A stretch of DNA of 64,000 nt from Metridium senile (Eukaryota; Cnidaria; Anthozoa; Actiniaria; Metridiidae): positions 12,165,398 through 12,229,397 of the forward strand of contig OX459105.1 in assembly GCA_949775045.1 (NCBI GenBank), given 5' to 3'. A model generated the notes under the pieces. That model saw only the letters and a program-made list of their open reading frames with translations. It was not told where the DNA came from and made no database searches. Both the position numbers and the translations under genes were made by a program. Below, in pieces: positions 10,041 to 40,900 of this stretch. Positions within the stretch are counted from its first letter, which is position 1; every line of letters begins with the position of its first letter.

Positions 10041-10918
10041 TTGTTTCATTCTTCTTCCTACGCTACAGTTAATACGCATGCGCTGCAGTCTCACAGGTAT
10101 CCCAAACCAAATTTGTTATCGCCCTCGTTCGTCGACGATCTCTTGATGTGAGAGTCTTGTCGTAGTTTGTACTGCAAGGCGTTTTTATTGTCTGACTCGA
10201 AGAATGCCAGACAATACTACGATTTTTAACTACTTTAATCCGATGAAAACACCTAATCAAAATCAAACTGTACTAGACGCAATTTTGACCGCATGGCACC
10301 AACACGTGACCCCGAGTCACGTGCCTCTAACACAGGTATCCTGAATATAGTAATCACAATACATTTTCCTTCTGAACAGTCCCTCCCTCCCTCCCTCTCT
10401 CCCTCCCTCCCTTCCTCCCTACAGCCAACCAACCCATTAACCAAGCAACCCATAACCAAGCAACCTGCAACCAACCGACCAACTAAGAAAAGAACCAATA
10501 AACAACCAACCAACGTTAACAAAATAAACAAACAAACCACGTTAACCAAATTCACAAATGTTCAAACAATCAATCATACAAAGAACCACCGTCAAGCAAA
10601 AAAAAAATAACCAATCAAGCAACTAAAGAAACAACCAACTAACGTAAACCAAACAAACAACTACCTAACCAGCCAATCAATATACAATCAGCTAGAAGAT
10701 GAACAAGACAAAAGACAAAGATACAAATCTTATTAAGATATAATGGTTTTTAATGAATTGGAAATCACATTTAATCATTAGTACTTTTGTCTTATAACTT
10801 AAAACTAAGAACAAAAAAAAAATACGAGTTTTTTTATTTAATGTTATATATTTTATGGCTATCATCAGTATAGGTACTTTTCTTGTTCGATTTCATGCTG
10901 TGCATGTATTTCTTACAA
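10041..10918. other. Spacer and 3' flank of paralog B
   Basis: Contains a CCCTCCCT run (10380-10425), a CCAACCAA tract (10425-10680) homologous to that downstream of paralog A, and the AATAAA signal on the minus strand (10833-10838). Confidence 0.5.
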
Positions 10919-13900
10919 TCACTTTGAACCAGTACATGATTTACGGGCTGTACTTGTAATTACATTCGCGCTGTTTGCAATCATGTAAGAGGGAATTGCT
11001 TTGTCTCCATTATTGTACAAATATTCACGTCCTTCTGCTGTACCTCCTGTCAGTTTGATTGGGAAGTTTGTATTGCTGAAGGCAAGATCGATGCCAATAT
11101 GATATTTGCACATCTCATATAGCATATCAAGTACAACATCGTCCATAGTTGGACTGCGACCTGCAATCATACACATGTATACAATCACTTTTGTCAACTA
11201 AAATTGAGATCTATAACAAGGAGATGAAAGAGAAGTCATGTGTCAAGGATGAGCCATGATGAAGAAAACAATGGGCGTGATATTGGGAAAGTATGAATTA
11301 AAATGAAGATGGCTACAAGGACAGGGGAAAGAATAAGAAAAAGAATGAGGACAGTTATAGGCAGAAAATATTGATGGTGATAGTGATGGTGATGGTGATG
11401 GTGATGGTGATGGTGATGGTGATGGTGATGGTGATGGTGATGGTGATGGTGATGGTGATGGTGATGGTGATGGTGATGGTGATGGTGATGGTGATGGTGA
11501 TGGTGATGGTGATGGTGATATGGTGATGGGGATGGGGATGGGGATGGGGATGGTGGTGGCGATAGTGGTGGGGATTGTGATTGGGAAAGACATAGGATAG
11601 AGATGGCGATGGGAATGAGGGTAACAATCACTGGAAAAACTGATAAATTTACAAACTTTGTAAAATTCCTGTAAATTTCCTGTAAATATACTGTAAATTA
11701 AATTTACAGGTTTATAGTATCTTTACATAGTTTGTAAATTTTCCCAAGATTCTGTAAATATCTTGAAAATACGTGAGTAAAATGGTTAGAAACCCTGTAA
11801 ATTTCTGATAAACTCTGTAAATACATCACGCAAACCCTGTAAAAACCCTGTGAATACTCATAATCAAGACTCTGTAAATATTCTGTAAATCAATTACCCA
11901 AAGCCTGTAAATATTCTGTAAATAATTTTACCAAAGCCTGTAAATATTCTGTAAATCAAATACCCAAAGCCTGTAAATATTCTGTAAATCAATTACCCAA
12001 AGCCTGTAAATATTCTGTAAATCAAATACCCAAAGCCTGTAAACATTCTGTAAATCAATTACCCAAAGCCTGTAAATATTCTGTAAATCAAATACCCAAA
12101 GCCTGTAAATATTCTGTAAATCAATTACCCAAAGCCTGTAAATATTCTGTAAATCAATTACCCAAAGCCTGTAAATATTCTGTAAATCAAATACCCAAAG
12201 CCTGTAAATATTCTGTAAATCAATTACCCAAAGCCTGTAAATATTCTGTAAATCAATTACCCAAAGCCTGTAAATATTCTGTAAATCAATTACCCAAAGC
12301 CTGTAAATATTCTGTAAATCAATTACCCAAAGCATGTAAATATTCTGTAAATCAATTACCCAAAGCCTGTAAATATTCTGTAAATCAATTACCCAAAGCC
12401 TGTAAATATTCTGTAAATGGATTTCCCACAGCCTGTAAATATTCTGTAAATACATAACCGGTACCCAAACCAAACCCTGTAACTACCCAAACCATGCAAA
12501 TATCACAACATAACTTTGTTTATTATGAATTCAGTGTTAGCAAAATAATATTTTTTACTACAAATATAAAAACCGTAACAATAACTCGAGTTCTCTTATA
12601 ATTTGAAAAGAATGAACTGTTTGGCGAAATTCTCAATTTCATGAACTCTACTTCCCGGTTAATTTGTTTTTAATGTTTGAAATGAACCATAACAATAGCA
12701 AATACTTTTGAGTATACTGTGTAATTTTAAGGTGTTTTTGCAATTCATTGTACACATGGGCCGGATTTTCCAGATACTTATCTGGTTAGTTTAGAGTGGT
12801 TTCCATTAACCTCTGAGACAAAGTGTAAAAAGAGTAAATAAGGATTTATTATCCAACTAGTCATAGACGAGTAAAAATATCGCAGGAGTAGGACTGGATC
12901 AAGTAAAAATATCCAGCGATATTTTTACTCGTCTATCTATCCCTGAAGTAAAACAATATTTTCCATTATAAAATAACAAAAACCTTTAGATTGGATAATA
13001 AATAACTTATTAAACAGTTTGATGTGTAATATGGCTGGATATTTTACTCGTTAACTTGCATTTTCACTCACCCGGAGGCTCGTCAAAATACAGCGTTTCA
13101 CTCGTAAAATATCCAGACATATTACACATCAAACTGTCTAATAAGATATATTTAGTCACACAAATGAAAAGCAAACAAACAAGTCAAATTTGACTGTATT
13201 TCACGGGTTAGAGCGCAAACACTTAATCCGTGAAACAAAATCTAAATTATTTAGTGAGTTTACTCGCTCAACCAGAACAGTCTAAGAAAAGGCAAATACA
13301 AAGGAAACAATACTTCATTATAGCTTTACTTGTCTAAAATATTCACTACCAGTCACCAAATAAGAACTATCAGACAGTATCAAATAGATCAGTATCACCA
13401 TAGATTTCATGGATTAAGTGTTTGCGCTCTAATGAAAACCACTCTAATCTCATAAAACTATCATAAATATGGATAATATAAAAAAAATACATTTTAAATA
13501 TTAAATAACTTCTAGATGATTTGTAAAGATCTGAATATAGAAATACCAAAACTACTCTATAAATCTCTTAAAAAATGTAAAACTATCAAATAAATAATTA
13601 AATAAATATATAAAATATTATAAATACATTTGAAACTATTAATAAAGTTTTAGATGATTCGTAAATAAATAAAAAGCTGAATAAAAAGCTTTAACAATAC
13701 ATTTGAAACTATTAAACTATTAATATTAAATATATAAAATATTATAAATATATTTGAAACTATTAATAAAGTTTTAGATGATTCGTAAATAAATAAAAAG
13801 CTGAATAAAAAGCTTTAACAATACATTTGAAACTATTAAACTATTAATATTAAATATATAAAATATTATAAATATATTTGAAACTGTTAATAAAGTTTTA

Positions 13901-16900
13901 GATGATTCGTAAAAAAAAAAAAAGCTGAATAAAAAGATTACTTAAATTTCAAATTGTTGTATTTTATAGTGTCTTTAGAATTGATTCTAAAGACTTCGAT
14001 CCCAAAAATTGATTCAGAAAGAAGCTGGCATAGCTGTTTCTTTTTGGTGCATCCTTTGATGTCAGCAACCCCGTTTTCTTTACATACTTCCTTTAGTTTC
14101 TCCATGCTGACATTAGAGATGCGCAGTTCTTTTAGGTAGAACAAACTTATAATAATGCCTTCCTCAAATGTAATCTAAATATCAAATAACTTCTAGATGA
14201 TTTGTAAAGATCTGAATATAGAAATACCAAAACTACTCTATAAATCTCTTAAAAAATGTAAAACTATCAAATAAATAATCAAATAAATATATAAAATATT
14301 ATAAATATATTTGAAACTGTTAATAAAGTTTTAGATGATTCGTAAAAAAAAAAAAAGCTGAATAAAAAGATTACTTAAATTTCAAATTGTTGTATTTTAT
14401 AGTGTCTTTAGAATTGATTCTAAAGACTTCGATCCCAAAAATTGATTCAGAAAGAAGCTGGCATAGCTGTTTCTTTTTGGTGCATCCTTTGATGCCAGCA
14501 ACCCCTTTTTCTTTACATACTTCCTTTAGTTTCTCCATGCTGACATTAGAGATGCGCAGTTCTTTTAGGTAGAACAAACTTATAATAATGCCTTCCTCAA
14601 ATGTAATCTAGGAGTAAACAAAAATGGTCGTTTTCAGTCAGATGACCTTGCTGGTGACATAGATATTCATTGCATGACAATGGGCCTTACACAATGAAGT
14701 ACAGAGTGCAGATCAATGGGAATCAAACACCAATGTTGAATTTGGGAGCTATATTGTCATGTGAAGATGGTATATGAATGAGTAAAGAAAATGTTGTCCC
14801 TTACCAGACCAGCTTCCATAAAAGCTCTCTTGTTTTCTTTCTTTTTTTCATTTATTTTTTTCTCGTACTCTGAGATTTGAGGCTCATCCTACATGTATAT
14901 AAGTAGAAAAAAATGTAAGTACACTTTTTATTGCTCCACTAAATGTACAGTTGCCTGTGAAATCCATTAAAAGTGAATAATCCCAGAGCTCAGACAGGGA
15001 TATAGGTAATAAAGAGGTCTTGAGTTCAATTTGGTAATAATTTGCATGAGTGTGTTTTTCAAAGAGTTGAAATTGCATGTGACAATGAACAGCGAACAAC
15101 CATTTCCATGATTCAATCTGATTACTCAAACTGTTTTCTTTTGTTTATCAACCAATCAGCAACGTGTAAACTCTGTACCTATTACACATTTTTGCACCAA
15201 TTACAGATTTCTGTACTGCTGTAATTGCATTGTACAAATGTAATTGCACTGAATTATGTATTAACAGAGATTTCATCATACAATTAGAATTGAGTAATTT
15301 TTTCATGTGTATTATTAATTATGGAATCAGTCTTCACTTAACAGTACTTTTGTAGAATCAATACCATGCTTTTAAAGTGCTTATGAAGTCAAAAATGGGA
15401 CATATTTCCCTAAATTCTAGACATCTTAGTTAATCGATTCCCGTTGTCAGAATTCAATTTGAAGCAATTGGGAATATTTTATCGATCTTTAAACATCGTT
15501 GTGACCACGCCCTGGCCGGGATTTTTCGGTCTGGGGCGAGTTACCGGAGGTGACGACACAAGTTACTGCATTGAAGTGTCAACTGAGGATTCATTTTGAC
15601 AACTTTACTTCAAGAGAAGTTGTAAAAGTATATCTAGTCTCGTTTGTTGTCAACATTTCACGAAAGATTCATTCGACAAGAATTATAATGTGGAAGGAAC
15701 AGACTATGTAAGGAAGGAGAAAGCTTGACACGACTGGTATTCGACATTAAACTCGCCATGGATTTGCCCGATCAGGCTTATACATATATCATTTTAAATC
15801 TCACGATGTCTAGAATTGAGGGAAATATGTCCCATTTTTGACTTCATAAGCACTTTAAGACCCGTTACATTACCTCAATATCCGATGCTGACTCACATAC
15901 CTCCATCTAATAAAGTAAATTTACAGTCAACACATTTGACATCTTGTACGATTCTCCGAATATTCAAAATGAATATTCGAATAATCAAATGAATATTCGT
16001 ATAATAAAATAAATATTTGTAAGTTCATAGAACCTATAACAGAAAGATTTCAACTCAGTTTAATATATTAAGGGAGTTCCACACTAAGATGATGTACATA
16101 CGTTTTCTTCAACCCCAAAATTACTTGCTGATGCAGTTTCCTAGAGTTAAGAAAAGATAAATAATGAACAACTCACACATACCGTATATATCCAGCATTG
16201 ATTATATGACAATCTACATTCTAAATGTACAATAAAACTAAAGCATCTTGTGGTACCAGGATGCCATGTTCATATTGTAACATGTTCATTTGAATATCAA
16301 TGCTTCTCACACAAAACAATTTATGAGTGCTATACCTCAGAATTAGCACCACTTTTATCAACCTAAAAGACAAAAGACTTCATGTAAAAATAGGCAAAAT
16401 ACTAAGTACTTATTGACTGAGTGGGAGGGCCGTACGGGGGAAATATTTGGCTCGCGGTCATGACGTACAAAATGACCAAGAGCCAAATATTTTTCCGTAC
16501 CCTGGTGCAAATCCTGGACAGGATCCTGTCTAGGATCAGGATCCTACACAGGATCCTGTCTAGGATTAGATTCCTGTGTAGGATCCTGTTGAGTGTCAGG
16601 ATCCTATGTAAGATCCTGTCTAGGATTAAGTTCCTATACAGGATCCTGTCTAGGAGTTGGTTCCTATACAGGATCCTGTTGAGGGTCAGGATCCTATGCA
16701 GGATCCTGTCTAGGAATTCTTTAGTTCCTACACAGGATCCTGTCTAGGATTTCTGTAGTTCCTACACAGGATCCTGTCTAGGATTTCTGTAGTAATTCCT
16801 ACACAGGATCCTGTCTAGGATTTCTGTAGTTCCTACACAGGATCCTGTCTAGGATTTCTGTAGTTCCTACGCAGGATCCTGTCTAGGATTTTCACCAGGG

Positions 16901-19900
16901 TACGGCCCGACCTAACTCAGTCAATAAGTTTTTTATCATATGACTCGTATATTTTGTCCGGCGCGCGCCATTTTTTGTAATGTCTCGAGTAGCTGGTCCG
17001 TACAGGTTTAGCAAATTTAAAAACATAGACCAAGTTGAGTTCTGTGCATCCTTAAAAGTTGAAACTTACATTTCTGGGTTGTTGAGGCTCTGCACGGGAA
17101 GTGGACTTAACCTAAAAAAGAGATGAAGAAAAAATGCATAAAAAAATACCTGGCCGCCGCCGGGTACACGAAAAAGTGGGGTTTGCTAGCAGGCTCTCCT
17201 TTCCCTTCCTCCCCCATCCCATCCCCCCATCTTCCTAAATCCCCATCCCCAATCCTCTAAGAGCCAGCAATGCAGGCTGGTAAATACACTGTATGAACTA
17301 TGACTTACTTGTTTTGTGTTTTGGGGAGGTTCAGTCTTGGCCCTCCTTTTTGTCTTGTCCTCTACATGTAAACCCTAAATAGCAGTATTTAAAATGATCA
17401 ACTCATGCAACAATATATATTCCATGTTCCTGATTATTTTGGTTTTCTAGCAAGTTTTGCTAAATATATGTCGGTAGAACTGTAACACAGAAAAATGTTT
17501 TCTACTTCTCGATTATGTGGTAGCTTGCGTACACACATCTGTACACCATTTCCACTAGGTACATTGCTTACATCAATGGTTAGCCCAACCTGACTAGAAT
17601 AAGTAATACCAACACACACTATTAAAAGTGCACACATACTGTACCTAAGAGCCGGCAATGTAGGCTGGTAAATACACTGTATGAACTACGACTTACTTTT
17701 TTTGTGTCCTGGGGAGGTTCAGTCTTTGCCCTCCTTTTTGTCTTGCCCTCTACATGTAAACCCTAAATAGCAGTATTTAAAACGATTAATTCATGCAACA
17801 ATATAAATTCCATGTTCCTGATTATTGTTTGGTTTTCTAGCAAGTTTTGCTCATTTCTAATCATCAATCTGTATACATGTGAGTTTTTCAGTTACATGTA
17901 TGCTGGTTAAAATAGTTTCTTCTGTTAAACATTATTCCAGGTCTTGAAATAGCATATTATCTTGCAATGATTCTCAATGTAAGCATGTGTTAGTCTAGTT
18001 CATGCAGCATACCAAAACACAATTCTTAACAACATACAAATTCTTGCACCTGTCAAGTGCCAAAAGCTGTGGCAGGCCAAACTTTCTTCCTATTTTGATC
18101 CCAGTATTTTAATCTTATCAACACATGAATGTGACATTTTAGCTGCTTGTGGCTACATGTATTACCTTGTAAGCTGATGGCTTTCTGCCTTGGCTAAGTT
18201 TCTGACCAATAAATTCTCTGGCCCGCTGGCTGGATAATGTGACAGTTCCGTGGCCATCAATCCTGAGTCTTCCAATATACTTTCCCAGTTCATTATCTTG
18301 TAAGATCTCTCCCATAAGCAAACAGTTCCCTTTAGCCTCCTCATAGCATGTCCCATTGGCCACTTTCAGGGCTCCACTTCCCTGCCACTTGAAATACAGT
18401 AAAAACCCATATAAGAAGCACTATTTTTCAAGGTTAGGCTAAAGTGGTTCTTATATAATTGGTATTTAGTGAGAAATTAGGCTAAGGTGGTTCTTAACTG
18501 GTTCTTATTTACAAAGCATAAACAATTTCCCTTATATATTGTTTTTTTTTATGTAATATAAATTGTTATGTAGAAGCATCTGAATGATGAATGTATTCTC
18601 ATAATTTGAGAACTAACTGATAATACATTTGTAAACATTTTACTTGCATTGATTTTAAATTTGGTCATATTCAGACTCAAATTATATTTTTTCAAATGAC
18701 CAAATAAATCTTGAAACCTTTCATATAAGAACCAGTCTAGATTTTTAGCCTAAAGCCTAGTGGTTCTTAATCCACTGGTTCTTATATGCGGGTTTTTACT
18801 GCAGTAATGACAATTATTAATGCAATCTGATATATTTGGTATATATTCGACTGAAGTCTTCTGTAATTTAGAGATGTCGAATTTAACAGTTTCACAATAT
18901 TGTCAGTAATATTCCTAAAACCCCAATTGAATATCATTTTACCAGTCATACTATGAGATTTTGTTTATTCCATCATTCTTTCCGCACACGTTGTTACACT
19001 GACATTACATCAAATGATTGACAATAGGAAGTTTTGCAGACATGCACACAAAGATAAAAAATACACTACCTTCCCCTCTTTTTTGGCTGTATCCACTAAG
19101 AGGCACAGTCTGGCATTAAATTTATTCAACAGCATGTTCGCATCTTGTGCTTGTTGGTTTGTTTTTGCCAGTAAAAGGAGTTCTTTCTTCCCAATCTCCC
19201 TTGAAGGCTGTTTCGTGTCTAAATTTTCAAGTTTCTTGTGTGGTTTACATGTAGTATGGTGGTCATCTTTTTTTTGCTGCTCAACCACAACATCGTCATT
19301 GTTATTTTGCAGCTTATCCACACACAAGGTCTCCTCTAAGAATGTGATAATAGCAACAAAAGTGTATTTATTCTTCTCACTTATCAATACTAATAATTAA
19401 TGATTTTGAAATGATATTATTTCAAATCATGTATCATACCAGAAACTCATAAGGGGATTGAAACATGCAACCGCCGTACATTTTTTGTGTCCCATGCTAG
19501 GCAATATTCAACTTGTTCGTTGGAAATATTTTTGCGTTTAAACATAACTTTATGCTTCCAAAACACTGGAAACTTTTTGAATAGACAAATACTAGAAAAA
19601 CATATCTAAAAACCCACAAAGATTAATGATATATATATTTTTATCACCAGTAGCCATTTTGAATTGAGCTTTGACTACCAAATATGGTATCAAAAATATG
19701 CTAATCAGTTTGAATATGGTGGATCATAGAACCACGCTACACGTTTTTATCCCCTAATGAGTTTCTGATCATACACTATCAAGTTAAGATTAATATATTG
19801 CTCATATTTACATTTAAGCCTTCCCTGAATTAAAAAAAAACATTAATTCATCCGATTCAAATTTCTCAAAAAATTAGTAATTAATAATAATAATAATAAT

Positions 19901-22900
19901 AACAAACCTTGTAAATTATTTAAGGCACTTCTCAGCATAATCAAATATTTCCCAGGGATTTTCATGGTTTGGATCATGTCTAGATTTTTTGCTAGGAGCC
20001 GGAGTTCCGTCACAGTCTCGAACTGGTGAGATAAACAACATAGCAACATTATTGTAACATAAAAGAACAATTTGCCTTCCTCACACCAAGATTGTCTGAT
20101 CTCATTAAGAGACTGTGGTAAACCACTTTTAAGGCAGTAGAGTCTATGTTTAGGCAATATCATTTATGTTTTTTTCATGCTCAAACTTTCATTGAAAAAT
20201 GCCATGTTTACATTTTGGTCTAGTGACATTACACAGGAATCCTAGTGCCCCAAGGGTAAATTGATTTTGCACTCGAAAAACTAAACAAAAACAAACTTTA
20301 TAAAAAGGATCTTTGAACTCAAAACAAAAGTAATGTATCAAGCCTCGACAGAGATATGTACGATCTTTCGTGCTGTGGTTAATATGGAAAAAAAACATTT
20401 ATATAGTCAAATAAGGTTCGAAGAATCTAGGATTATAACTTTTTGAAGCTACTGTCCTCCATATATGGAGGCGTATCTTCTATGTCATGGTGTAGTGAAG
20501 GAATAGAAAACGAGGCAGCGTGCTCTATCGAGTCTTATAATTCAACAACAAATTTTCCTCCGCTCTCATTGGTCGAGGGGCGATCACGTGACGTGATAGT
20601 GCCCGCCGCGGAGGGATACTATCAGCGCATAGTGCCTGCTGAGTGAGAAAACAAAGCAGTTTTTTTCGTAAAATTTAAAATAAACTGACTAAACTGACGT
20701 AATTTTGCATTGAAATGGTTTTCTAGTTTGCTTTTCGTCCGCTGTGGAAAATTTTGTTGTTGATAAACTGAATAAACTGACGTAATTTTGCATTGAAATG
20801 GTTTTCTTGTGTGCTTTTTGTCCGCTTCGGTATGTTCTCGGGCGACTATTTGTTTTTCTGAACATCCAGTTTCTGCGGGCAACTATCACAGCATAATGCC
20901 CACGATTCAACTACTCTATTGTTTAAATAGAGCACGCGGGAATTTTAAGAAGACGAGAGAAGCGTTAGGAGAAACACGACGCGTAGCGGAGTGCTTCTCA
21001 GCGCTTCTCAAGTCTTCTTAAAATTCCCAAGTGCTCTATGACTCAATAGAGCACTGCTGCCGAGTTTTCTATTTCTTTTATAAAATATTCAGTAGTTAAA
21101 ATGAAACGAATCGACGCTCCGTGCACTGTTGAGTTATAGAGAACGCTTCTCAGCCAATCAGAGCGCGCGATTTATATCAAATATTTTATAATGTCCGATA
21201 GAAAAAGTGTAACACTGACTACTACGCATGCGCGAAATTTGCCGCTTGTGTCGAAAACAAAATGGCGGACGTGATGCAAAGCCGTGTAGCTTGAATTCTA
21301 TTGCCTCTAGCGTAATTACTTGATAAAGCTAACCAAGTCAACCTGTTTAAACTCATTTACTTACTTTCCTTGTATTGTCCTTAAATTTTTAGAATAGCTT
21401 TGTAATAGCATTTTTCTTGACCAGGGTTGGTAACGTTACCTTGCATATAGGGGCGCCTTGCATATAGGGGCGCCTTGCATATAGGGGCGAGGGGAGGGGT
21501 GGTATAGAGTATATAAATTTTCAAAATACCAGCATTGTTGTACAACATAAAGCACTAGATGTTTATGAATTACGCGTAAATTCAGCTTTATTCAATTCAG
21601 CAATTTTTTAATATAGTATTTATCTATATGTATCTCTAGATATCTCATATTATTTTATTGTCTTAGTGTTTTCGCTCTATCACTTTTAAATTTGAGTTAG
21701 CTAATTCATTGAACTTCCTTCCGATCTTTTAGAACTACCGTATACAGGCTTCATACTGCATGAACGCTATATATAATGGTAATTGAACTAAGTGGAGTGC
21801 AATTTGGTTCGAAATCAAACGCGCGATTACAAAATCGCACGACCGCGTAGCGGGAGTGCGATTTGAATCGCAAGTTTGATTTCGAACCAAAATTGCACGA
21901 CACGAAGTTCAATTACCACTTAATTATATCCATTTTGAAATCAAACTGTAGTTTACAGCATGCTTTTATTGATTTTTTTACAATACCGGAAACGGAAATG
22001 CTCTTTTTACATTGAAAATGTCATGTGACAGGTCGTTTGCAAGTTTGACAACTGATCACTAGTTTGCTTGGCAGCTCAAAGTTCTTGCAAATTTGGCGAA
22101 ATTTATAGTTTAATCTTCAACAGCTGACTCAATAAGGTACAGTTGTTGTGTCTTCGGTAGCTGAGGAGATATTCAGGACTAATGTCTAACTTGATCGTAC
22201 ACATGTGTGTAATGGCGTTGAGCTCAGCAGAACTGGCACACGTGAAATTGAACATACAAGCAAGATTTGGTTAAGTTAAATAAATTAGCTACCTCACATT
22301 TAAAAGTAAATAGAGCAAAAACACTAAGACAATAAAATAATATGAGATATCTAGAGATACATAGATAAATACTATATTGAAAATTTGCTGAATTAAATAA
22401 AGCTGAGTTTACGCGTAATTCATAAACATCTAGTGTTTTATGTTGTACAACAATGCCGGTATTTCGAATGTTTATATACTCTATACCACCCCTCCCCTCG
22501 CCCCTATATGCAAGGCGCCCCTATATGCAAGGCGCCCCTAATATGCAAGGCGCCCCTATATGCAAGGTAACGTTACGAACACTACTGTTTTTCTTAGCCA
22601 TTCTTAAAATATAATTTTCTGAATGGACCTTAATCTCCAATCTCCAAACCTTATCAGCAGTTCTCCGTTAATTTGTTTTTAATTTTTTTTTCTTTTATCT
22701 ATATATTTAGCTTTTTAAAACAGTAGCTTTATGCAGTCCTAGACTGCCTATTTTTTCTCGAGCTGTGAGGTTTTCCCGCGCTTTTCTATAAAACAACTTT
22801 TCAACTCCTTACTGGAACTATTCTAAATTCAACCTACCTTATTTTCTTCAACAATTTGTGGTATAAGTCCCGATAAACCATTTATCTGAAGAAAGAGCTT

Positions 22901-25900
22901 CGCATCATCACAAGAAGTCTATTTTAAAGGAATAAGTTAAGGTAAGCTTTAAACGCATGATCATTCAAAAGTCTTCAAGCGTAAACCACAAACAATTCTA
23001 AAATAAAAGCAATAACTCTTCGACAATTAACTTTAAAAGTGGTCATAAAGCACTTACCGATACATTTTGGGATTCCATGATCAATGTTCCCTATAAAAGC
23101 TACAATAAAGCTGGTTGAAAGTTGTAAGACGAAAAAGACCTTGTTTGCAGTTGAACCGAAGGCAAAGCGACCCGCGTAGGTGTATATCCGCTGGTTAGAT
23201 AATGCAGGCTCACCTTTTCTACCAGGCTCTCACGGCGATTTTGTTTTCAGGGCCTTTGTCGCCTTTGTACATGTATTGAAGTATATTTTAAAGATCAGAA
23301 AGCTTGTAAAACGAAGTGTAAAACGGAAACAAATTGGTTACTGATGGTTTACATGTATTGCTAACCTTTCGGATGGTTACAGTGATCGCATATGGATGGT
23401 AAGTTCAAAAAATATTGAGCTTATAAACTCTTTTTAGCTGCTTGAACTTCGCATTCTGTCGTCGGATTTTCGTTCAGTTTGAGATGCATGGTGAAAATAC
23501 TTTAAAACTACATTTATCGATAGTTTTTAACTTACTGAATACGAATTTGTTTACATCTCTAAAAACCTGCGGTTTTTTCGTAAAAGCCTTCGAAAGTTTG
23601 ATATACATGTAATTCTTAAGAAAATTTATTCCCTATCCGCCATATTGTTTTTACTGAAAATCCGCTCATAATTTCGGGCTCATATCAACAAATTTTGCTG
23701 CTTTACGGTTATTAAAGGGCGATTTTTCTAAGATTTTATATATTATCTACAATAATTGATTAAAATTTTTAGTGAGGAAAAATAATAAAAAGTGAAAACA
23801 AAAGCACCCAATACATTTTGAATAAATATATCTTATTAGACAGTCTGATGTGTAATATGTCTGGATATTTTACGAGTGAAACGCTGTATTTTGACGAGCC
23901 TCCGGGTGAGTGAAAATGCAAGTTAACGAGTAAAATATCCAGCCATATTACACATCAAACTGTTTAATAAGTTATTTATTTTCCAATCAAAAGGTTTTTG
24001 TTTTACTTGAGTGCTAGATAGACGAGTTAAAATATTGCTGGATATTTTTACTCAACCCAGTCCTACTACTGTGATATTTTTACTCGTCTATGACTAGTTG
24101 GATAATAATGGAGGATATAGTGTACTCCCATATATTTGCTATACGGGTATGCGCCGCACTGACTCTGACTCATAATGAAATGGGTGCTTTTGTTTTCACC
24201 TTTTATTATTTTTCCTCATTAAAAATGTTAATCAATTATTGTAGATGAACTAAACTATTCATAAAATTTAATGGCCATAGAGCAGCAAAATTTGTTGATA
24301 TGAGCCCGCGATGAGAGATGTTGGTTTGTCCTTTTCATCATCGACAATCATTGATTAGTGGCATTTGATTGATATCAATTGCAGTTATTGATTTACAATA
24401 TCCACCTCTTCTAAGCATTTTTTTATTCATTTGTTGAAAGTGTTTCTCTCTCTTTACATCATAATTTGAAATATTATTCATTCCTTATATTGCAGGGGGG
24501 AGAAGTAATCAATCTCCCTGTCACTGTCCGTTATGCAATGGAAGGCTGCGTGATAAAAGAACAATAAGAAATCATTATAGAAGTGCTCATAGTGCAAATA
24601 GTCCATCCTTGGATAAACAAGTTAGCTCAAGTAGCCAGGATAATTTAACTGAAACTGTATATGCTAGAGGATATTTTGAAGAAGGACCTTCTGAAGGCTT
24701 TTTACTTGCTGCAAATGGTCCAGATGAAATAACAGAAGAAAACTTGGAAGAATATTCAAACTCCGATAGTGAAGATTCTCACACAAGCAATGATTCAGAC
24801 TCAGATGTCGGAGATTCATATGGTTCTGAGATTGACTCTGATGATGGCAGTGATGAAGATAATGTTTCTACTTGTGAGTACACTGGAAAGGACATAAAGA
24901 ATGCAGTTCTGAGAAGCATAGAATCAAAAATTCTAAGTGGTAGGTCACAAGCAGAAACACTTTCTGAACTTAGAAATCTCTATGAATTGTTAAAAGATCA
25001 TCGAATCCCACATAAGTCTTGGAATTCTGTTTTGAGTTATTTGAAAAAACTTGGCTACAAGGAATCTTATTATTTCAAAGTTTGCTGTTCACCTGACCAT
25101 ACCAGATTACTTGAAAATGAAACAGACTGCACTGTTTGTGGGAAATCATTTGATGATTGTTTAAACTATTATGTGCTTGGCATTCAACTTCAAAACTACT
25201 TTTTAAATGATACTGTCATCAAGGATCATCTTGAACATTGGGAACATAAAGATGAATGGTTAAATATTGATGATGATGATGATGGAATCAAGTACAAAGA
25301 GACCTGGCATGGACAGCATTTTAGGAAGTTATCCTATTTTTGGGATAAAAATGTGGAGTCTCTTCTCCCTGCACTGTGTCCTAACTGTAATAGTGTTGTA
25401 TCTGTGCGTGAAATTACTGCACATGTTCCTCCTGGAAATACTCGTCACAATGAATTATACTTAAGCTGCAGAGAATGTTGTTTTGACTTTTTACACAAAC
25501 CAAAGACAATGAGAGGATGCGAGCTCAATCAGGCATTTGTATTCCATGAAGACGGTTTCAATGTCTTTGATAAAAAAAGTCGAGGAATTTCTGCGATCCA
25601 CATTGCAAGTGCATGTCTTGCTAAAGACCAAAGAACAAGTGGGAAGTACCTCCGAGTCTACAGCTTTGTACCGACAGAATTCATAGCAGAAGGTATCCAA
25701 CACAAAATGGATCCCTTTCTTAAACCTTTGGTTGATGAAGTGAAAGAGTTGTACATCAATGGAATTACAGTTTCTATCAAAAATGACATAGTCTTAAGAA
25801 ATGGCAATGTCATTCAGCCTGGAAAGTACCAAATCCGAATGCTGCTCTTGGTTGGAACAGCTGATATAAAAGGACACCAGGAAATGCTTTTGTATGCTGG

Positions 25901-28900: not shown

Positions 28901-31900
28901 ATACAATCCACTGTTGACCGAATAGTTGCTTGGTCATCTAGCAATAAGTTTCAGATTAATAATGATAAATGCAAGGAACTTAGGATTTCCTTCGCAAAAC
29001 AGCAACACGATCTCAATCCAGTTATGGTGAATAATAGCCCTATCAATGTTGTAGATAATGCCAAATTACTAGGTTTAACTATAAGTAGTAACCTTAGTTG
29101 GAATTTGCAAGTAGATGAAATTGTCAAGAAAGCATCCAAAAAGCTTTACTTTAATTCTTGTCCAACTAAAAAGGGCAAGGGTACCAACAGCTGACCTAGT
29201 ATTATTTTACACAACTTGTATTAGATCTGCTATTGATTACGCAGTACAAGCCTTTCATTGCTCTCTACCTAAATACTTAATTAATGATCTAGAAAGAATA
29301 CAGAGAAGAGCAATGTCGATTATCCATCCAAACTTAGCCTATAAATTAGCCCTTAGCATTTCCAATCTCAATACTCTTGAGCAACACCACAAGGAGTTTG
29401 CACGAAATTATTCAATGATATAATATGTGATTCTAGCCATAAGCTAAGGAATTTACTGCCACCGAAGCACAGTTGCAAATACAACCTAAGAAACCAACGT
29501 ACCTTTAAATTGCCTGTTGTACATTCTGACAGATTTAAGAAAACTTTTATACCATCTATGAGTACAATTTTTTAAATTTTATCCTAAGCCATTAAGTATA
29601 CATACATATACACATAATTTTTATAATATTAATTCACGTTAGCAATATATACATGCAATTTATATCATAAAATTTAATATAAATATATATTTTACATTTA
29701 ATTGTAATTAGTCAATTTTAGTATTGTAAATTTACGTGATTCAGTGTACACTGCCATGTAAATATTGTAATAAAATTCTATTCTATTCTATTCTATGTTT
29801 ATTATATTGCAAGAGCATAAAATTCTGATTTCCCATTATTGAATCAGATAGATATTGTGGTAAACTAACAAAAATTACAGACTGAAGCATATTCTAAAGT
29901 TAACCTAGTAATTAGAAAAAAATATACCATAATCAGTATCATCATTGCATTTTATATAGTACAGCAAATACATGTAGTCGCAGTGCACTGTCCAAGTCAG
30001 GCCACATACTCCGGGAAATTTGAATGGATTTTTAATTACATATTAATTATTATCATTCTGTTCCTAGATTCAGTGAAATTGCAAAAGAAGTTCTTGCCGA
30101 GAAGATTCCATCTAAAGCCTACGATTGTTACATGGTCCTATCTCAAGCAGTAAAGATGCTGTACTCAAAAGAGCTTAAAGTATTTGGTTGGTCTGAGGAG
30201 AATATTAAGTGCTTGAATAACCTGCTATGGGCTCATGCTATTATGTGTGAAGACTATTATGGACTGGGCTACTGCACAGAAAACCTAGAATATTCGACAC
30301 ATGCTGCAGCCCAAATACAACGACATTCAAGCTTGGATAACTATTCTTGCGAACTTTATGAACGTGTCATAAGGCGTCACAAGCAACAGAAGCATAACTC
30401 AAGGGGAATTGAGAAAACCTACGTCTCAAGAGAAAGTTTGAGGGACTTTTTGAATTTGTATAAGCTTAAACATGGTGAAATATCCACTTATCAAAAGAAG
30501 TTAAAATACCAATTCAAAATGGAAATTCTTCAACAAAGGCAGCCTTTCTTTTTAAAGGAAAGTTCACTAGAGTCGGCAAGTAACCTGATAGAAGATTTCA
30601 AGGCCTGCCAAGATATGCGAATGGAACATGCTATAAAGAATGGTGTTCTCCTGGGCTCCATTTCAGAAAAGAACTTACCAGACCCAGTACTAGCAGATAT
30701 TGGGAGGTATGTCAGAGCATGTACAGGACTGAATGATGTAGAAGTACAACCTATTCTTAAAACTTCGAAAAGTGCTGTTGTTCTAAATCAATTTGGAGAA
30801 GTTATGAAACTATCACTCAATGATACAGTAAAGGTTAAAAGTCCCAACAACACCGAGGAATGGATTGTGGAGATCGATGTTATTGCTGTAGCTGGTCCAT
30901 TTGATGGGTTATTTTATAGTTTTCTAAATGGCCCTTATTATATACCTGTTCTTGAAAATGGTCAGGTAGCTGTTCACCGATGGACAGGCACACCCAAGTA
31001 TATTCAACGGTCATATCAAAGGCAGAGTGTACAACCTATAACAGCATTTTGTAGAAAGGTCATGATGTATCCAGAGCCAGGCAACTATGACAATCCAAAT
31101 TACTGCCTCTGTATTGATTTCAAGAAGCCTGACCTGACAAATAATGTGAAAGTTCCAATTTACCCTGTTATCGATGAGACAATAAAGGTAAAAGGAATAA
31201 GAAACCAATTTTGGTATGGCAAAGTAACAGAGGTTAATCTTCCTGAAAGGAAAGTTAAAGTCCATTGGTACCAAGAAACTAGAAGAAGGAATGTCTGGAC
31301 CCTATGTACGAACAATGAAGATGAGATCCACTTCAGATGTGTTGTTGGGTTAGCACTTACTCAGAGAGTATTTGGAGGAACTGGAATTACTGACATTTAG
31401 TTTTATCCCATTGTTTGAAGTAATTGTACTCATCATGTTACCAATACATTTGCATTTGTAAAAACCTTTTTTTTGTATTGGTATTGTATATTAGAGTACA
31501 TGCCATATATCCGTGAAATAATTACTAGCTATGTATCACCTAAAAGTATTACTAAGATTTTACTCAGGCATGAAATCATACAAAGAAACATGAAGGCAGC
31601 TAATTTTGTGACTATTGTTCCTTACACTGTTCCACTCCACCACTAATTTGTACAAAATAGTGACATTAGACAATGTATATCAAGTTTTATTTCACAGATA
31701 TATAGCATACACTCTATACATGTATATAATATTTACACCTGTCTTCAGTAGAAAGCATTTTGCAAATAGTGAATTAGGAACTATTCAGCAGACGTGTGAT
31801 GTTTTTATTTCCAGTCAGGAATAAACTGCTCTACTACGTGAAACTAAATATTGAATAATATTAGACTGAAACTTCTCTGCATGAGGGCAAATGAGGAAAT

Positions 31901-34900
31901 TGCAAGTCAAATCAGATAATTGCTGAACCAATTCTTTAGAATAAGCTTGCTAATTAATTCCTATTTCACTATTTACCAATTTCTTTTTACTATTTTCAAA
32001 TACATGTAGGACTACATTTTTGAAAACAGGTGTATACATGTATATACCTAAACTTTTTTAAAAAATGGCAAAAACAAATAGAAAGTAGAAGACAAAGAAA
32101 ATTAGGACTTGAACTTGAAGCTTGAAACTGTTTATTAGGCGTTTTGGCTTTTCATACACATATATGCTTTAATAATGACGTTATAATATTAATGATTGAA
32201 AATCATGCAACATCTTTCACTTTTTAATGTTAAGGTGGCTCCCTGTAGTTTTCTTTAGACCATACCTTTCATATTCATTTGGCTGATTTTTAGTCTTAAC
32301 TTACACCTAAATACTTGGTTTTTGGACCAGTGATAATGCTAAAATGAAATGTTAGATAAATGTCAATTTCAGCTTAATTGGCGTTACCTTGGCAACGATA
32401 AACAAATATGGCCAAAATTGTTTTTTGTCGAATAAACAACTCTAAAACATGAAAATTACGACTTCAGAATATTTCTGCAAATTACTAAAACTTGTTTTAG
32501 AGTTATTCGACAAAAAAACTTTTGGCCATATTTGTTTATCGTTGTCATGGTAACGCCAATCAAGCTGACATTGACATTTATCTAAACTTCCTGCTTTGCA
32601 TTATCACTGGTCCCAAAACCAAGTATATAGGTTTAAGTTAAGACTAAAAATCAGCCAAGTGAATATGAAAGGTATGGTCTAAAGAAAACTATGGGTGTTA
32701 GTTGAACAATAAATTGAGTAGAATAAGCATACAGTAATGTTAGTGTTTGTACTCTACAACTGCAGGTTCATTTCTAAATTTTATCACAACAATTATCAAA
32801 TTATCGATGTTGTTGTAATAGTGTTTCAAACACTATTTGATACAAATTGTGGAATTTTTACCAAAAAAAACACTGTTTCTAGCATTAAAGTAGATTCTGT
32901 ATGTGCTGCAAAATGAACAGCACTTTTTGGCTGTGGCTGAACTCTGCCCTCAGCATTTTAATTATTTGACATTGCCACCTGGACAGGTTTTACATCTTTG
33001 TTGTGATCTGTACTGTTGCAGTCATGAAATCTGATGTATGTTCTCTTGTATTCAGTGGTTTTTAGAAAATAAAACTTTTGCTACGACATTCATATTGTAC
33101 GTATTAATAATAATTAATAGGAAAACAATAAATCATAACTGTTTTTTTGTTAATTCTGGTTTTACTGAAGTTTGTTATACAGTCTTTTGGTAAGGTTATG
33201 TAATAGAACATGCATGAACATACATGTCAGTTGGAAGGCAAGACTAGACGTTCTTCCCCAGGGCTTTATTTTAAGCAAACTTGTATCCCGAAAACATCTA
33301 GCTTTCGAGATTCATACTTTATTTGCATCGTTAATATGTGGAATGCCTTACCTAACGATATTAAGTTAAGCAATTCTCTTTCTACTTTTAAAAACAGACT
33401 TAAGACCTTTCTCTTTTTAAGGTTAAATAATGTTTTTGACCAAGATAATATTAGAACGTATAAACTTATCTGCCCTAAATGTCGCAGGACTAACACTTAT
33501 ACTAAGTGCCAGTGCTAATTTGTACATACATCTTATAAATATACTTTAATTTTCAATATTTAATTACTACTTATAATTACTATTCATAATTACTATTATA
33601 ATTATCATTAGTGTTTTTCTTATAGGACTATATTGGGGTTGGATATTCTTCTTATTGGGGTTGGGTTTGGCCGATTAACCTTGTAGGGGACTTTGTGTCC
33701 TATTGTTAGCCATGTACGGCTATATATATAGTGTGTACTAAATCTGTAAAATAAAAATAAATAAAATGAAATGATAGTATCATTCATTATAATGTGATGC
33801 TTGTTCAGCAAAAAAAAAGGCACAATGATCCCAGCATCAAACCCTATTAACTGCAGGGCTTATTCAATATCACTACCTTGATGGTTTTCATATTGTAATG
33901 CAAATTAGCCATGGGGTCTTCCAGGGGACAAGCAAATTAAAATTTGGATATTTTAGCAGATTTTGACAGAAATTTATAATTTCTTTACAAGTGCATATTC
34001 AATAGACCTACTCAGCTTGGGCAATGTTTGTCCCATTTCAGACCCCTTGGCAATAAAATTCTTTGTTTTACATCAACGTTTGAGAAGATATATAAAACAA
34101 ACATTGCCCAAGCTGAGTAGTCTATACTTATCAAATGAATGAATCTCTTCAAATGAAGTGGTTTTGGCCGTTAGTTTTTAAATAATATATAATAATAAAT
34201 TTGCTGTTTCTTTTCATGCTTGCCACCAAGAAGACTGCATGGCTAATTTACATTACAATATAAACTTAACCATCTTGGCGTTCATTCTGAATAAGGTCTT
34301 AGTTATAGATACAAAATAATGAAAACATTAAACCTGTGAAACAAAATCTAATAGTCAAGGTGTAATAGAAACAATGGATTTAGAAACTGTTATGGTAATG
34401 TTAGAGTGAAAACATTAAACCCATGAAATAAAATCTAATAGTTAAGGTGTAATAGTCAAATAGACACAAAAGAAAACAATGGAATTAGAGACTACTAAGG
34501 TGTATTAGGACTTCACTCTAGTCTAATATCTGTTTCACGAATTTATGGAAACCACTCTTAAATAATTTATTTTAAATAGCTATCTTAAACATTTAAGTGT
34601 ATTTAAAGTGAATTGAAGAGAGATTCGACTCATCTGCTGTGGTCTTGTTAGCTTTTTCCCCAAGCCAAGGACTTTTTCCTTGCTATCTCCGAGTTTATGA
34701 AGATACTGCCTTAAATATTTGAGTGTATTACAGAACACATATCCATATGAGTAAGTGTCGCTTTTGTAACTTTGAGGTCCACCATTGACAACTTCTGGAG
34801 CAATGTGGGGGTATGTTCTTCTGTATGTTTCCTTTTCTTTTTCTGTTAGATATTTCAATTGAGAACCTTCAAAAAAAAAAAAATGATTAAAGATCCTGAA

Positions 34901-37900
34901 ACACAATTCACATTATCTTTTGTAGGGTGTCAAATGCAAAATTTTGAAAATTAGCATTTTCTGGTATCTCTTAGGGTGTCGACATAGGAGAAAATGTTTG
35001 AAAATTAGCATTTTCTGGTATCTCTTAGGGGGTAAAATTCATCCAACCACGCCCTTTTTCAAAGACTTCCGGTATGTTTAAGGGGTATTTTTCAAACTTT
35101 CCGACAAGCATCCCTGGTACTTTTAACCCCTGGGGGTTATGACTTAAAGCCATATTGTCATGAATGAAAACAAAAGGTTAAACTGAACATATTAGATTAC
35201 AAATTCTTGTTTCAGGAAAATCATAGCCATGACCAAATCTGTATATGAGCAAGAGGTTTGTCCTGATTTGCATACAACTTTAACTTTTTCTCTGAAAAAA
35301 TAACATTTTACCTTGAAGTTTTTAGTACAATATGCTGTACAGTTAATATTGAAATTGCATAATTAATATACAATGTTCGCATGCTATCTGTATGAGGTTT
35401 AAAACATCTTGCCTGCGGCTTGATGTTTTAAATCCTCATACAGATCTCAGAGTGTCTGTCTTATTTTGAAAAATATCAAAAATATCGTTTGGACTACTGT
35501 AACATATTGCTGTATAGAATTTCTGAGTGTCAAGTAAAGAAACAAGTAATGAACGCTAGTGCTAGACTCATTTATCAAGTACCTATGTTTTGTCATATCA
35601 GCCCTATACTTAAAATTATACTTATTAATTACTTGTATTTAGATTAATTTGTAAGTTATGCGCATGTGATTAATCATTAATCATTTCATAGAACATGCGC
35701 AATATAAATATTAAATACTATTATTATATATATTTATACTTACTTTTAATATCTTGAATATATTTTGCTTTCCCAAAATCGACAAGCATTGCATGGTGAA
35801 TTCCTTTATTGTCCTCAATCACAATATTATTTCCTTTTATGTCATTGTGAATAATTTTTTGAAGGTGAACATGATGAATTGCTGAAGCAATTTCATATAG
35901 AAGATGCATGCATTCCTTCAATTGGACATTCTGTGTATTCAAGCTATGTAGATAGCTTGAATAAGTTTTAGGTTTGCCATTGCTTAAACACAACCTTGTT
36001 AACAGAAAGTATGGGCGTGTCAATGTCTGTACCCCTATCAATATTGGAATATTTGGGTGGCTAGGGATTTTAAGAAGGAAATTGGCTTCCTTGTGAACTA
36101 TGTTAGCTGTCACTTTCCCTTTCAACACTTTTATTGCTACTGGGATATTCTGATATGTACCAGCAACACACATTCCAAATGTCCCTTCGCCGATTGACGA
36201 GCATTTCTCAATGGGTGTCAATGATTCCAAACAAATATTCAGACAAGGAATGTGGTGTAGTTTCCCTTCATCTTGGATTGATTGTGTGATCTTCTTTTCT
36301 GCTTTGTTGACTGTTAGATTGTGTGTATCTTCATTTGAGGCATTTGGGACTTTAATTTCCCTGAAGTCGACCCCATAATAATACCAATTAGAGTGTACTT
36401 TTCTCCGTTCAACACTTGGGAAGGCTTTCCTTACAATTAGCCCACATTCTGTTACTGAGAGTGATCGGTCTTCAGTCAAAATAATCTCTCTCAACTCTTT
36501 GACTTTGATCCTTGTCGATTTGTTTGTTGATTTTATCCTCTCCTTTAGCCTGGAATGCAAGAACGAAAACCAATGTACTTGAATGTGGCGATTAATTTTT
36601 AGCTGAATGAATCAAACATATATATACCTTCGAATAGCTTCATTTCTTCTACCAATTCTTAACGTATAATTTGTCCTGTTTGCCTTCATTATTATAAAAT
36701 GGCGACAATGTCAAACTCAGAACATTCGGTATTGTGGGCCAGCGGTTCCCTCGTTACCACTAGCGACGAAAAACCAATCTCGATTTATGATTCAGGGTTA
36801 GTGATTAAAATGTCTTGATACGCACTTTATAGAATTAAGAGAAAAACAAACATGAAGAGCACAACTGTAGAGATTTTCTACGAATTCCGCAGTCTTGATT
36901 TGAAGAAAAATGAAAGGTTGTTTAAATGATTACATTTGAAAAGAAATCGCACGCGCTTCTATTAACCAATCACGCACCGATAATTAAAATGGATTTCTTA
37001 ACTCAAGTACAGTTGACTCTCTCCTAACGACCACTCGTAAGCGACGATCTCCCATAAGCGACCACTCTTTCAATTTCCCGTTTTGTTTCCAATATAAACT
37101 CTGTAAAAAAACTCTCCCGTAAGCGACCACTCTCGTAAGCGACCGCGACCACCTTTAGGGTTCAAGTTTTTGACTTTTTCATTGTTTTTCCTCTCTCGTA
37201 AGCGACCACCCCAATGACAGATCCTTTCAATAAACACAAAATGTTGAATTTATTTAAGATGATAAAAATGTGTATACAGTATTATCTGGTATATCCTGAA
37301 TAATGTAAAACCCGAATAATGACCGAATAGTCGCGAATAGTGACGAATAGTAGTAAACTTGTGCATGGTGCCATATGCTAAAGCAAGGCAAACGACACCA
37401 TGCAGACGAAATTTGGACAATTTTTTTATTTTCTTCCTTCCACAAAATTCGTCCTGTAAACAGTTGCAGATGTTTTCCTTTTTGAATTTAGAGGATTTCT
37501 ACGGATACTTTTCGGGCCCTCCTTTTTGCATTTACATGATATTCACATAGTTTTCGCACTATCGCGCACTATCGCCAATTTTACAAGACCCCTCTGACGC
37601 GTACAAAATGTATTTCTATTAATAACAACACAATGAAATGGTAATTTTGTTTTATTTTTTGGCATTTTGTTCCAATTAATGTTTAGATTTAGTAGGTCTT
37701 TTTTAAGAAAAATCTGTAATGAAAAACCATTTATATCTAGAAAAAATCATTTTTTTAATATTTTAAAGGTTTCGCATTACAGATTTTTTTTATTTTTCCT
37801 CAGTTGCAAGACCAGGTAGGGAACTAGACATGTACAAGTTTAAAAAAACTTTCACCTAAAGGATTTGGAGATATCAGCTTTAATAAAGGAATTTCAGGTC

Positions 37901-40900
37901 CTTTTTGCAGCGGCCTGCTGTTGTCATGACAACGTCAAACGCAATAATTAAAACAAAAATGATATCCTAGATCCATAAGCTTTAAAATGATATATTGGTT
38001 AACTGTATAGCTTCACAATAATGCTGCATAATATGCAATATAAAGTAGGTATATAGATATATACAGAAACCATTTCGAGCCTCCTTAAGTATTTCACCAG
38101 AGTTTTTACATTTTTGCATTTACAGGATTTTTACAGTTACATAATTTTCTTTGAGTGTTTACAGAGTTTTTACAGACTTAGCCCTGTTAATGTACAGGAT
38201 TTTTACATACACTTTTTGGGCCCTCCTTTTTGCATTTACAGGATTTTTACAGAATTTTCTTTGTGTGTTTACAGAGTTTTTAAAGACTTCGCCATGTTAA
38301 TTTACAGGATTTTTACAGACACTTTTCGGGCCCTCCTTTTTGCATTTACAGGATTTTTACAGAATTTTCTTTGATTATTTACAGAGTTTTTAAAGACTTC
38401 GCCATGTTAATTTACAGGATTTTTACAGACACTTTTCGGGCCCTCCTTTTTGCATTTACAGGATTTTTACAGAATTTTCTTTGATTATTTACAGAGTTTT
38501 TAAAGACTTCGCCATGTTAATTTACAGGATTTTTACAGACACTTTTCGGGCCCTACTTTTTGCATTTACAGGATTTTTACAGAATTTTCTTTAAGTATTT
38601 ACAGAGTTTTTACAGACTTCGCCATGTCAATTTACAGGATTTTTACAGACACTTTTCGGGCCCTTCAAGCTCTACTTTTTCAATTTACAATATTTTTTAC
38701 AAACTTTCCTTTAAGTATTTACATAGTTTTTACAGACTTGGTGCTTCAAAATTTACAGTATATTTACAGATTTACCATTTCACAGATATTTACAGAAAGA
38801 GGAAATCGTATGAATAAATTTACATAGTTTAGTCGTTTTTAATTGCAGAGTATTTACAGACTGGCTAAGTTACACAAAACTAAGACTATAAAAATACCCT
38901 GTAAATTAATTTACAGACAATGTAAATTAATTTACATACTATGAAAATACCATGTAAATTTTTATTTACAGGAATTTTACAAAGTTTGTAAATGTATCAG
39001 TTTTTCCAGTGAATCAGAATAGTGGTCGCAAATTAAATGTGGGGGATAAAGCTAGAAAGTGTTTTATTTCTCTGCAGGATTGACACGGATTTAACCACTG
39101 ATTAAACAAACACTGTATATTTAATTTACTACTCAAAGTACCACATTGACAAATGTGACACAGGAATCCCAAACAATACAGATATTATTGAACACAGGAT
39201 CCCCACAAACTAGACTAATGTTTGAGAATTGATGTCAATGAGGTTAGGTATTTACCATCGTATTTCGGAATGTCTTTTATTTTTGGCATCTCCGTCTGTC
39301 CAGGAAAGGTTCGTTTTTTAGCTATTGTTTCTGCAACCTCCTTGATGAACGCCTCTTTTATTGGATCTGTTGGAGCAGCAGCTTCTGCAACCATGGTTAT
39401 AACGAGGAACTCCACAATGTGACGTACTGTCGTTGCAGATTGCCCGCTACCAAAACTTTCGAAATTTGGTTGATTGTCGAGTGTTGACATACTTGCCTTT
39501 ATCATCAAATCTGCTAGCTTGCTTTGATCTTTAATTTCTTTAAGGTTTTTAATGATAGTATCATAACATGGAGCTACAAATGCATTTGCCATCCCCCAGT
39601 CACTACCGTGAGTATATACTACAATTTGATTCCTTCCCCCGTAAAATTGGTGCGCTTTGGACAAGTAGAATGTCCTTGTTTCCCCTCCAATTGGCACGTC
39701 ATATTGATTTCTTTTATAAAGGAATTCAGTAGGTAAAATGTTCAAGGAAGATTGTAAGAGTTTGAACAACTCTCTTAAGGTAAGGGTGTTTCTTGGTTTG
39801 ATTTCAATTTTCAATTTTTCATTTTCCAAGTTTTTCACAGAAATAGTGTCAGCTTGGTTTGTCAGTTCTTGCCATTTGGCCTTGTAGTAGTTGGATGTTG
39901 TCAACATACTAGCAGTTAACTCGTATCTTAGTTTGGTCGTTCTATCAAGTTCTATAACTTTACTTAGTTCAATTTCAAATTTATTTCTCTCCTTTTCGAA
40001 AGCAGCATTCACATTGCTGAGCCAAATTTGACTTAAGACAGGTTGTTTCCGAAGAATCGAGGTTGATGCAAGAAATCCCACTCCATTTAAAATAGCGATT
40101 TGTGTTGCTTTGCCAGGGCCAAAACTATTTTCAATGTAACCAGAATCACTTAACATTGAATGGTACAACATTTGTAACAGATTTGTTTTATTTGCCCAAT
40201 TCCAATTCACAGTATGTTGCAATTGTTGGACTATGGAAGAAATGGCTGAAAGATCTTCTTTAACCAATTCTTCGGGATCTTTAACATCTTTGAAAAGATG
40301 AAATGCACTAAAACTACCAGAACCATCCAGTTTCTCAAGTTTGAACATAAACTTCTTTCCATTAACAGGAATGTGAAAGAAAACTGGCTTTTTTGCTTCC
40401 TTGTAAATCAGTGGGAAAAATTGAAGAAAATTGAATATTTTTTTCATTGTCAACTGATCTGTCTCGATGAACTCCTCTACGATCTTAAAGATGAAAAACA
40501 CAGTATTAATATTTTATACATTCAATGTTTAAGGCAAGGTTGTAATTGGTTGAAACCAATTAAGGAGGCTCGAAATGGTTTCTGTTTATATCTATATACC
40601 TTCTTTATATTGCATATTATGCAGCATTATTGTGAAACTACACAGTTAACCGATATATCATTTTAAAGCTTATGGATCTAGGATATCAATTTGTTTTAAA
40701 ATATTGCGTTTGACGTTGTCATGACAACAGCAGGCCGCTGTAAAAAGGACCTGAATTCCTTTATAAAAGCTGATATCTCTAATTCCTTTAGGTGAAAGTT
40801 TTTTTGAACTTGTACATGTCTAGTTCCCTACCTGTTTTTGCAACTGAGGAAAAATGAAAAAAAAATCTGTAATACGAAACCTTTAAAATATTTAAAAAAA

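Follow-up and report, generated by a model that had tools for sequence, protein, structure and literature searches.

What kind of unit occupies the centre of a 64,000-nucleotide stretch of the Metridium senile genome (GCA_949775045.1, contig OX459105.1, positions 12,165,398 to 12,229,397; hereafter the window) was the question raised by a preliminary description of its sequence, which claimed that nt 11629-39011 form a single giant CACTA transposon carrying multi-exon genes. Copies, ends, subterminal arrays and an empty site support this claim. With high confidence, the segment is a complete CACTA/EnSpm DNA transposon of autonomous type whose amplification is very recent. The observed basis is its paired ends, 3-bp target-site duplication, arrays, open spliced transposase frame, copies elsewhere and a paralogous empty site. 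This confidence covers the transposon itself, not the roles of the two other genes assigned to it, a kinase gene and an inferred 11-exon gene (gene 3). The features are listed in Table 1.

Termini and subterminal arrays

The window contains zero N bases. The matching CACTGG/CCAGTG ends were confirmed, nt 11629-11676 and the reverse complement of nt 38964-39011 being identical at 47 of 48 bases. The borders read ...aacAAT/CACTGG on the left and CCAGTG/AATcag on the right, and the claimed AAT duplication is present on both flanks. The motif CTGTAAAT occurs 40 times on the plus strand and once on the minus strand of the left 850 bp, once (plus) and 18 times (minus) in the right 950 bp, and not at all (plus) and once (minus) in the 25,583 bp between the arrays, which bears out the reported inverted subterminal arrays.

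Elements of the CACTA/EnSpm family have CAC...GTG ends, a 3-bp duplication, inverted subterminal arrays and a tnp2-type transposase with introns. The first three are all found here, the CAC...GTG termini lying in inverted repeats. The literal termini are CACTGG and not CACTA; 10 of the 11 left ends have the CACTGG start. The transposase would bind the ends and the inverted subterminal arrays, excise the element and insert it at a 3-bp staggered cut; this cut-and-paste scheme is proposed because of the 3-bp duplication and established knowledge of the family.

Table 1. Features of the transposon in the window (positions are those of the window).
Feature	Position (nt)	Strand	Details
Left target-site duplication	11626..11628	.	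AAT; from sequence
Left terminal inverted repeat	11629..11676	+	begins CACTGGAAAAACTG; 47/48 against right repeat
Left subterminal array	11659..12451	+	plus-oriented CTGTAAAT; tandem unit of 33 bp, from 11872
Gene 3 (inferred)	14371..20022	-	11 exons, 398 aa (amino acids), without start exon; GT-AG, frame-consistent; exons 1-6: 19908-20022, 19070-19335, 18166-18387, 17697-17762, 17309-17374, 17070-17111; exons 7-11: 16336-16362, 16102-16140, 15874-15906, 14805-14888, 14371-14607
tnp2-like transposase gene	23392..31400	+	1,089 aa; exons 23392-23398, 24496-25902, 27856-28378, 30068-31400
Fold-back repeat, ~720 bp	26666..27385	.	in transposase intron 2; copies 97-98% elsewhere
Fragment of a long interspersed nuclear element (LINE)	28590..29796	+	reverse-transcriptase piece; in transposase intron 3; copies 93% elsewhere
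Kinase gene	34582..36689	-	384 aa; RFX-like winged helix (N-terminal) and protein kinase domain; exons 36628-36689, 35744-36549, 34582-34866
Right subterminal array	38110..38963	-	CTGTAAAT in opposite orientation; 110-bp tandem unit
Right terminal inverted repeat	38964..39011	-	finishes CCAGTG; 47/48 against left repeat
Right target-site duplication	39012..39014	.	AAT; from sequence

Transposase gene

All borders of the four transposase exons are GT-AG; exon numbers of CACTA transposases reportedly vary. Five homologues were found (expect values (E) 6e-268 to 3e-118), two of them named, from Nematostella vectensis and Actinostola, which points to an anthozoan host. Of the three joins, the two that link long exons align without gaps to the uninterrupted homologue P0021, a record that may be genomic or transcript; the join of the 7-base first exon lies outside the reach of this comparison. 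Five of the six alignment members match Pfam Transposase_21 at E up to 1 (best 3.1e-5). Conserved acidic positions are present in the rows covering them at HEDG (four), TAD (six) and CELYER/CFVYER (six) in this six-row alignment; they are the putative DDE/D catalytic triad, which would lie in an RNase H fold. A sequence search of solved structures with the transposase profile gave a single match (E 0.69), which we regard as chance. Exon 2 of the window is set apart by a gap of 9 bp, a length divisible by three, from each of the four other copies in which this exon was found. Of the internal tnp2-like transposase that had been claimed, the open spliced 1,089-aa frame and its homologues hold good, and the Pfam tnp2 match falls below the curated cut-off in the scores seen.

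Insertion site

The element lies in an intron of a minus-strand gene, with an exon open reading frame (ORF) at nt 39215-40513, that resumes at ~11.0-11.2 kb; a tandem copy of the interrupted gene is found at ~3.7-6.0 kb in the same window. The left flank matches this copy up to 11 bp before the insertion, with GATGGN repeat as the final part of the match, and for the right flank the match starts 31 bp past the insertion (BLAST). The tandem copy has 36 bp between the two matches, and joining the element's flanks through a single AAT gives 39 bp there; these bases are only weakly alike. Because the tandem copy runs through the site without an insert, the site is, by sequence comparison, empty in the paralogue. 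The suggested check for sites lacking the insert thus yielded a paralogous one, and no insert-free allele of the window site was seen. The paralogous host genes (nt 3679-5982; nt 10632-11552 with nt 39187-40563) are 80-82% identical and stand beside GATGGN repeats.

Copies elsewhere in the genome

The genome searched comprises 389 Mb in 169 contigs (prefix C below; the window is C11:12165398-12229397), and counts of ends rest on the 107 matches listed. When the ends were compared with the assembly, as had been proposed, the 272-bp left-end query was found at 100% in 11 places including the window (10 over positions 1-272, one over 4-272).

Six further sequences were compared with the element. 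The locus at 12.56 Mb of C12 is a further copy with the internal genes, of the kind that the preliminary description had asked for: it carries the entire element, colinear and 99.85% identical (17 mismatches and 23 gap positions in 27,389 columns), with the CAC start of the left end missing. C97 holds the entire element with a 4.5-kb insert, flanked by direct repeats, in transposase exon 2, and differs from the window by 7 mismatches in 13,297 in the right half and by 38 in 13,843 in the left part. The first base of the C97 contig (105,669 bp) is the element's terminal base; its interpretation as an excised molecule was dropped, as a contig edge is no proof of excision.

Other copies are internally deleted or interrupted. 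C16 and C131 have two deletions in common, whose joints in C16 show short base matches; both copies lack the end of transposase exon 2, the two exons that follow it (3 and 4), and six of the 11 exons of gene 3. C132 is without nt 23906-31551, the whole transposase gene except its 7-base first exon, and the copy at C12:463271 has an identical deletion. Additional sequence is present 2.75 kb inside the left end of C132 (where it is ~9.25 kb long) and of C13, which holds the first 2.7 kb of it at 100%, followed by a 200-N run. The left end on C5 gives way to unrelated sequence near position 25292 of the window and the one at C1:11.03 Mb near 23858; the left end at C1:15.60 Mb was covered over 100 bp. 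Each of the ten intact left ends has an outer flank of its own, except that C13 and C132 share one, and a perfect 3-bp duplication is found in two of the four sequences with both outer flanks (window, AAT/AAT; C16, TAA/TAA). Copies at other sites together with the paralogous empty site attest to mobility; judged by these sequences, the 27-kb element reached its roughly ten places very recently.

It could be objected that the ends belong to two separate elements, or to an assembly chimera, and do not bound one mobile unit. C132 (40,524 bp) has the left flank of C13:8117896 and the right flank of C6:17403317, with 3-bp flanks AGC and GGC. Because of these mixed flanks and the unequal triplets it is probably a chimera through near-identical transposons, so chimeras between such copies probably exist in the assembly. 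The structure of C132 alone is not to be trusted, although the main deletion is found again at C12:463271. Moreover, 200-N runs interrupt the C13 and C12:463271 copies, and another lies ~180 bp past the break in the C5 copy. In the window, however, a single gene provides both flanks and its tandem copy crosses the site without the insert, the 3-bp flanks agree, and the 27.4-kb order is repeated at another locus (C12) and, interrupted by an insert, on C97. Separate ends or a chimera are therefore very improbable here; the whole-unit copy, the interrupted copy and the empty site speak for one unit and not for the ends as separate short elements, the outcome that had been named as contradicting the claim.

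Some results weigh against a complete, autonomous-type transposon. Right-type ends (98% over 48 bp) are found in seven places, against 11 for left ends, among the matches listed, and two of the four testable copies are without a perfect duplication (C12, with its left end lacking CAC, and C132, AGC/GGC). The two Transposase_21 scores seen, 22.6 bits for P0021 and 17.7 for the window, are below the 28.6-bit cut-off, and the AlphaFold model of the transposase (five sequences) has a mean predicted local distance difference test score (pLDDT) of 43.9, too poor for judging a DDE fold.

Kinase gene

The product of the kinase gene matches Pfam Pkinase at 95 bits (cut-off 31.7) and contains GEGTFG, HND..KGNN, DFG and APE, which we take to be the kinase catalytic motifs; activity is predicted from these. 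A ten-row alignment (A3) has an N-terminal block around ECG..AFP..YYYG in common. The model of one homologue, P0008, has a mean pLDDT of 47.8 overall and block means of 68-93 over residues 1-78, which match RFX-type winged helices (PDB 1dp7, 8zjr) in fold comparison. The modelling suggests that the N-terminal part of the kinase is an RFX-like winged helix; a point on the other side is that the model was made for P0008 and not for the kinase of the window. By sequence alone, an RFX hint was obtained in one of ten (E 0.14).

Protein searches returned 20 matches, one being the kinase itself. The nearest relative, P0002, is 54% identical over 65% of the query and groups with the window kinase at 100/96. 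In the tree, these two adjoin P0003-P0008 (96/93) and are apart from the multi-copy kinases L035, L037 and L039. Since the ends of P0003-P0008 lie close to the position of the window kinase's second intron, that intron may be shared with them. A genome search (107 of 153 candidates scored; 87 matches listed, to which the following refers) placed the main kinase exon at 99% in seven places including the window, with a partial match in C131, and the last exon in nine. Other genomic matches are distant, at most 46%. No close parental gene was found among the 87 matches, and none of those listed lies within 100 kb of the divergent end matches at C1:20.32 Mb and C11:0.43 Mb.

RFX DNA-binding domains bind X-box DNA, and the winged helix here may likewise bind DNA, with the subterminal arrays or host promoters as candidate targets, and recruit the kinase to the element or to those promoters. 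The kinase would then phosphorylate the transposase or chromatin proteins, thereby tuning transposition, and would be a component of the element, not a recent host capture. We give this proposal about an even chance.

Within the transposon reading, and not in competition with it, the kinase might instead be a mere passenger taken from a host gene (Pack-type capture), with no role in transposition. Terminal inverted repeat (TIR) elements that capture host sequence are known in animals (PMC8277862). The kinase has introns as host genes do, the role proposed for it is hypothetical, and its last exon has a 7-bp gap in C16 and C131, so that some copies may lack an intact frame. Set against this are the lack of a close parental kinase gene among the genome matches listed and the presence in other datasets of RFX-kinase relatives of equal architecture, including the nearest relative above. 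Passenger status is possible but rather doubtful. The element does not correspond to a Pack-TIR or Pack-CACTA element, which is non-autonomous and filled with host-gene fragments, because it has its own transposase gene and no close parental kinase among those matches. That genes lie inside the element, as first described, is upheld; "cargo" may be the wrong word for them, because the kinase may itself contribute to how the element works.

Other kinases in repeats of the same genome

Further kinase matches (L035-L040) fall into three sets of equal scores, each a single open frame spanning the intron site of the element kinase: C1:38966853, C1:62419648, C7:14108622 and C10:11433066, with C86:7637 slightly lower; C5:14229949, C10:11504320 and C14:5379511; and C1:40870003, C4:9581608, C8:2175974 and C12:1188536. 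Three locus pairs with kinase matches of 35-37% identity were compared: C7/C10 (99.2% alike over 7.66 kb), C14/C5 (99.8% over 6.86 kb) and C8/C4 (99.9% over 4.63 kb). Flanks differ at the borders covered (C7/C10 left, C14/C5 right, C8/C4 both). As the C14 and C8 units are ~95% alike, these repeats are, by sequence, of at least two types. Some kinase-bearing repeats adjoin a large ORF, and no transposase was identified for the three pairs.

Gene 3 and nested repeats

Two non-transposase genes had been claimed inside the element. The kinase gene stands, with three exons and 384 aa, and the 11-exon gene is an inferred one without a start. The exons of gene 3 were picked by eye. Its codon score is 0.275 against a mean of -0.064 (standard deviation 0.029), a value reached by none of 500 random stop-free sets; in a shifted frame the score is 0.273, so that it supports coding-like composition more than the frame. 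The En/Spm element has a second protein, and by analogy gene 3 might specify an accessory protein like it, a suggestion weaker than that for the kinase. We think it unlikely that gene 3 is a hand-picked chain of open stretches and no gene, although its start exon was not found, no homologue was detected at E up to 1 among 3,543 candidates, there is no Pfam match, and the in-frame score is barely above the shifted one. Eleven consecutive AG/GT-bounded exons hold one frame up to the stop, and the score beats all 500 random sets. A 99% duplicate (nt 13851-14150 and 14284-14583) covers most of the last exon, and an inverted pair (nt 12846-13158 and 23819-24108; arms 91-98% complementary, ~10.7 kb apart) encloses gene 3. 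The deletion joint common to C132 and C12:463271 falls in its right arm.

Part of the size of the element is, as the sequence indicates, due to other transposons nested in introns. The fold-back repeat has at least nine copies at 97-98% elsewhere (19 of 8099 candidates scored).

Comparison with known elements

Like plant En/Spm, the window element has CAC...GTG ends, a 3-bp duplication, inverted arrays and an intron-bearing, tnp2-like transposase; unlike it, the element is 27.4 kb long with CACTGG ends, resides in an animal, carries an RFX-kinase gene and an 11-exon gene, and has a transposase whose Pfam match is below the cut-off. SmTRC1 of Schistosoma mansoni is described as an animal CACTA-related element of 4.5 kb with 54-bp inverted repeats, one transposase-like ORF and a 2-bp duplication in 7 of 14 copies (PMC1636069). 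It resembles the window element in its animal host, long inverted repeats, location in an intron and predominance of deletion derivatives, and differs in size, ORF content and duplication (PMC1636069). The enlarged EnSpm elements of the red alga Chondrus crispus (16-20 kb, 4-5 ORFs) are likewise oversized and multi-ORF but have an algal host (PMC6431247, a review). TET/JBP enzymes recur in unrelated fungal DNA transposons, where they are thought to help against the host, and the EnSpm elements carrying them have 3-bp duplications and CAC..GTG ends; these fungal elements carry a dioxygenase, whereas the animal element carries a predicted DNA-binding kinase (PMC12730594). RFX transcription factors (PDB 1dp7, 8zjr) share the modelled fold of the N-terminal domain; unlike them, the RFX-like domain of the window is fused to a kinase and transposon-borne, its DNA binding being predicted.

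Animal CACTA elements, oversized algal ones and recurring enzyme genes in fungal DNA transposons are thus already known. The kinase fusion and the whole combination were not met in the literature searched: no title or abstract met in the open literature, searched by topic terms, reports a kinase in a CACTA element or a fusion of RFX and kinase domains. The element shows that in an animal a cut-and-paste transposon can transport 27 kb containing two or three multi-exon genes. It did so recently enough for the divergence between the two full copies that have no insert to stay well below one base per thousand. It also provides a testable case of a transposon carrying a kinase with its own DNA-binding-type domain, which is relevant to the ways in which DNA transposons deal with their hosts and to the spread of such genes. 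We tentatively suggest, with somewhat less than even confidence, that the RFX-winged-helix kinase is a selected and integral component of this giant CACTA lineage, that DNA-binding kinases carried by transposons form a class of auxiliary genes in cnidarian DNA transposons, aiding transposition or countering silencing, like fungal TET/JBP, and that at least two further repeat families in this genome took up other kinase lineages independently.

Other features of the window

Outside the element, nt 48113-48790 contain an exon with an L27_2 match and a PDZ match below the cut-off, perhaps from a scaffold-protein gene. Tandem repeats occur at nt 7224-7723 (CTCTCC, 83 times) and nt 59938-60756 (a 102-bp unit, eight times).

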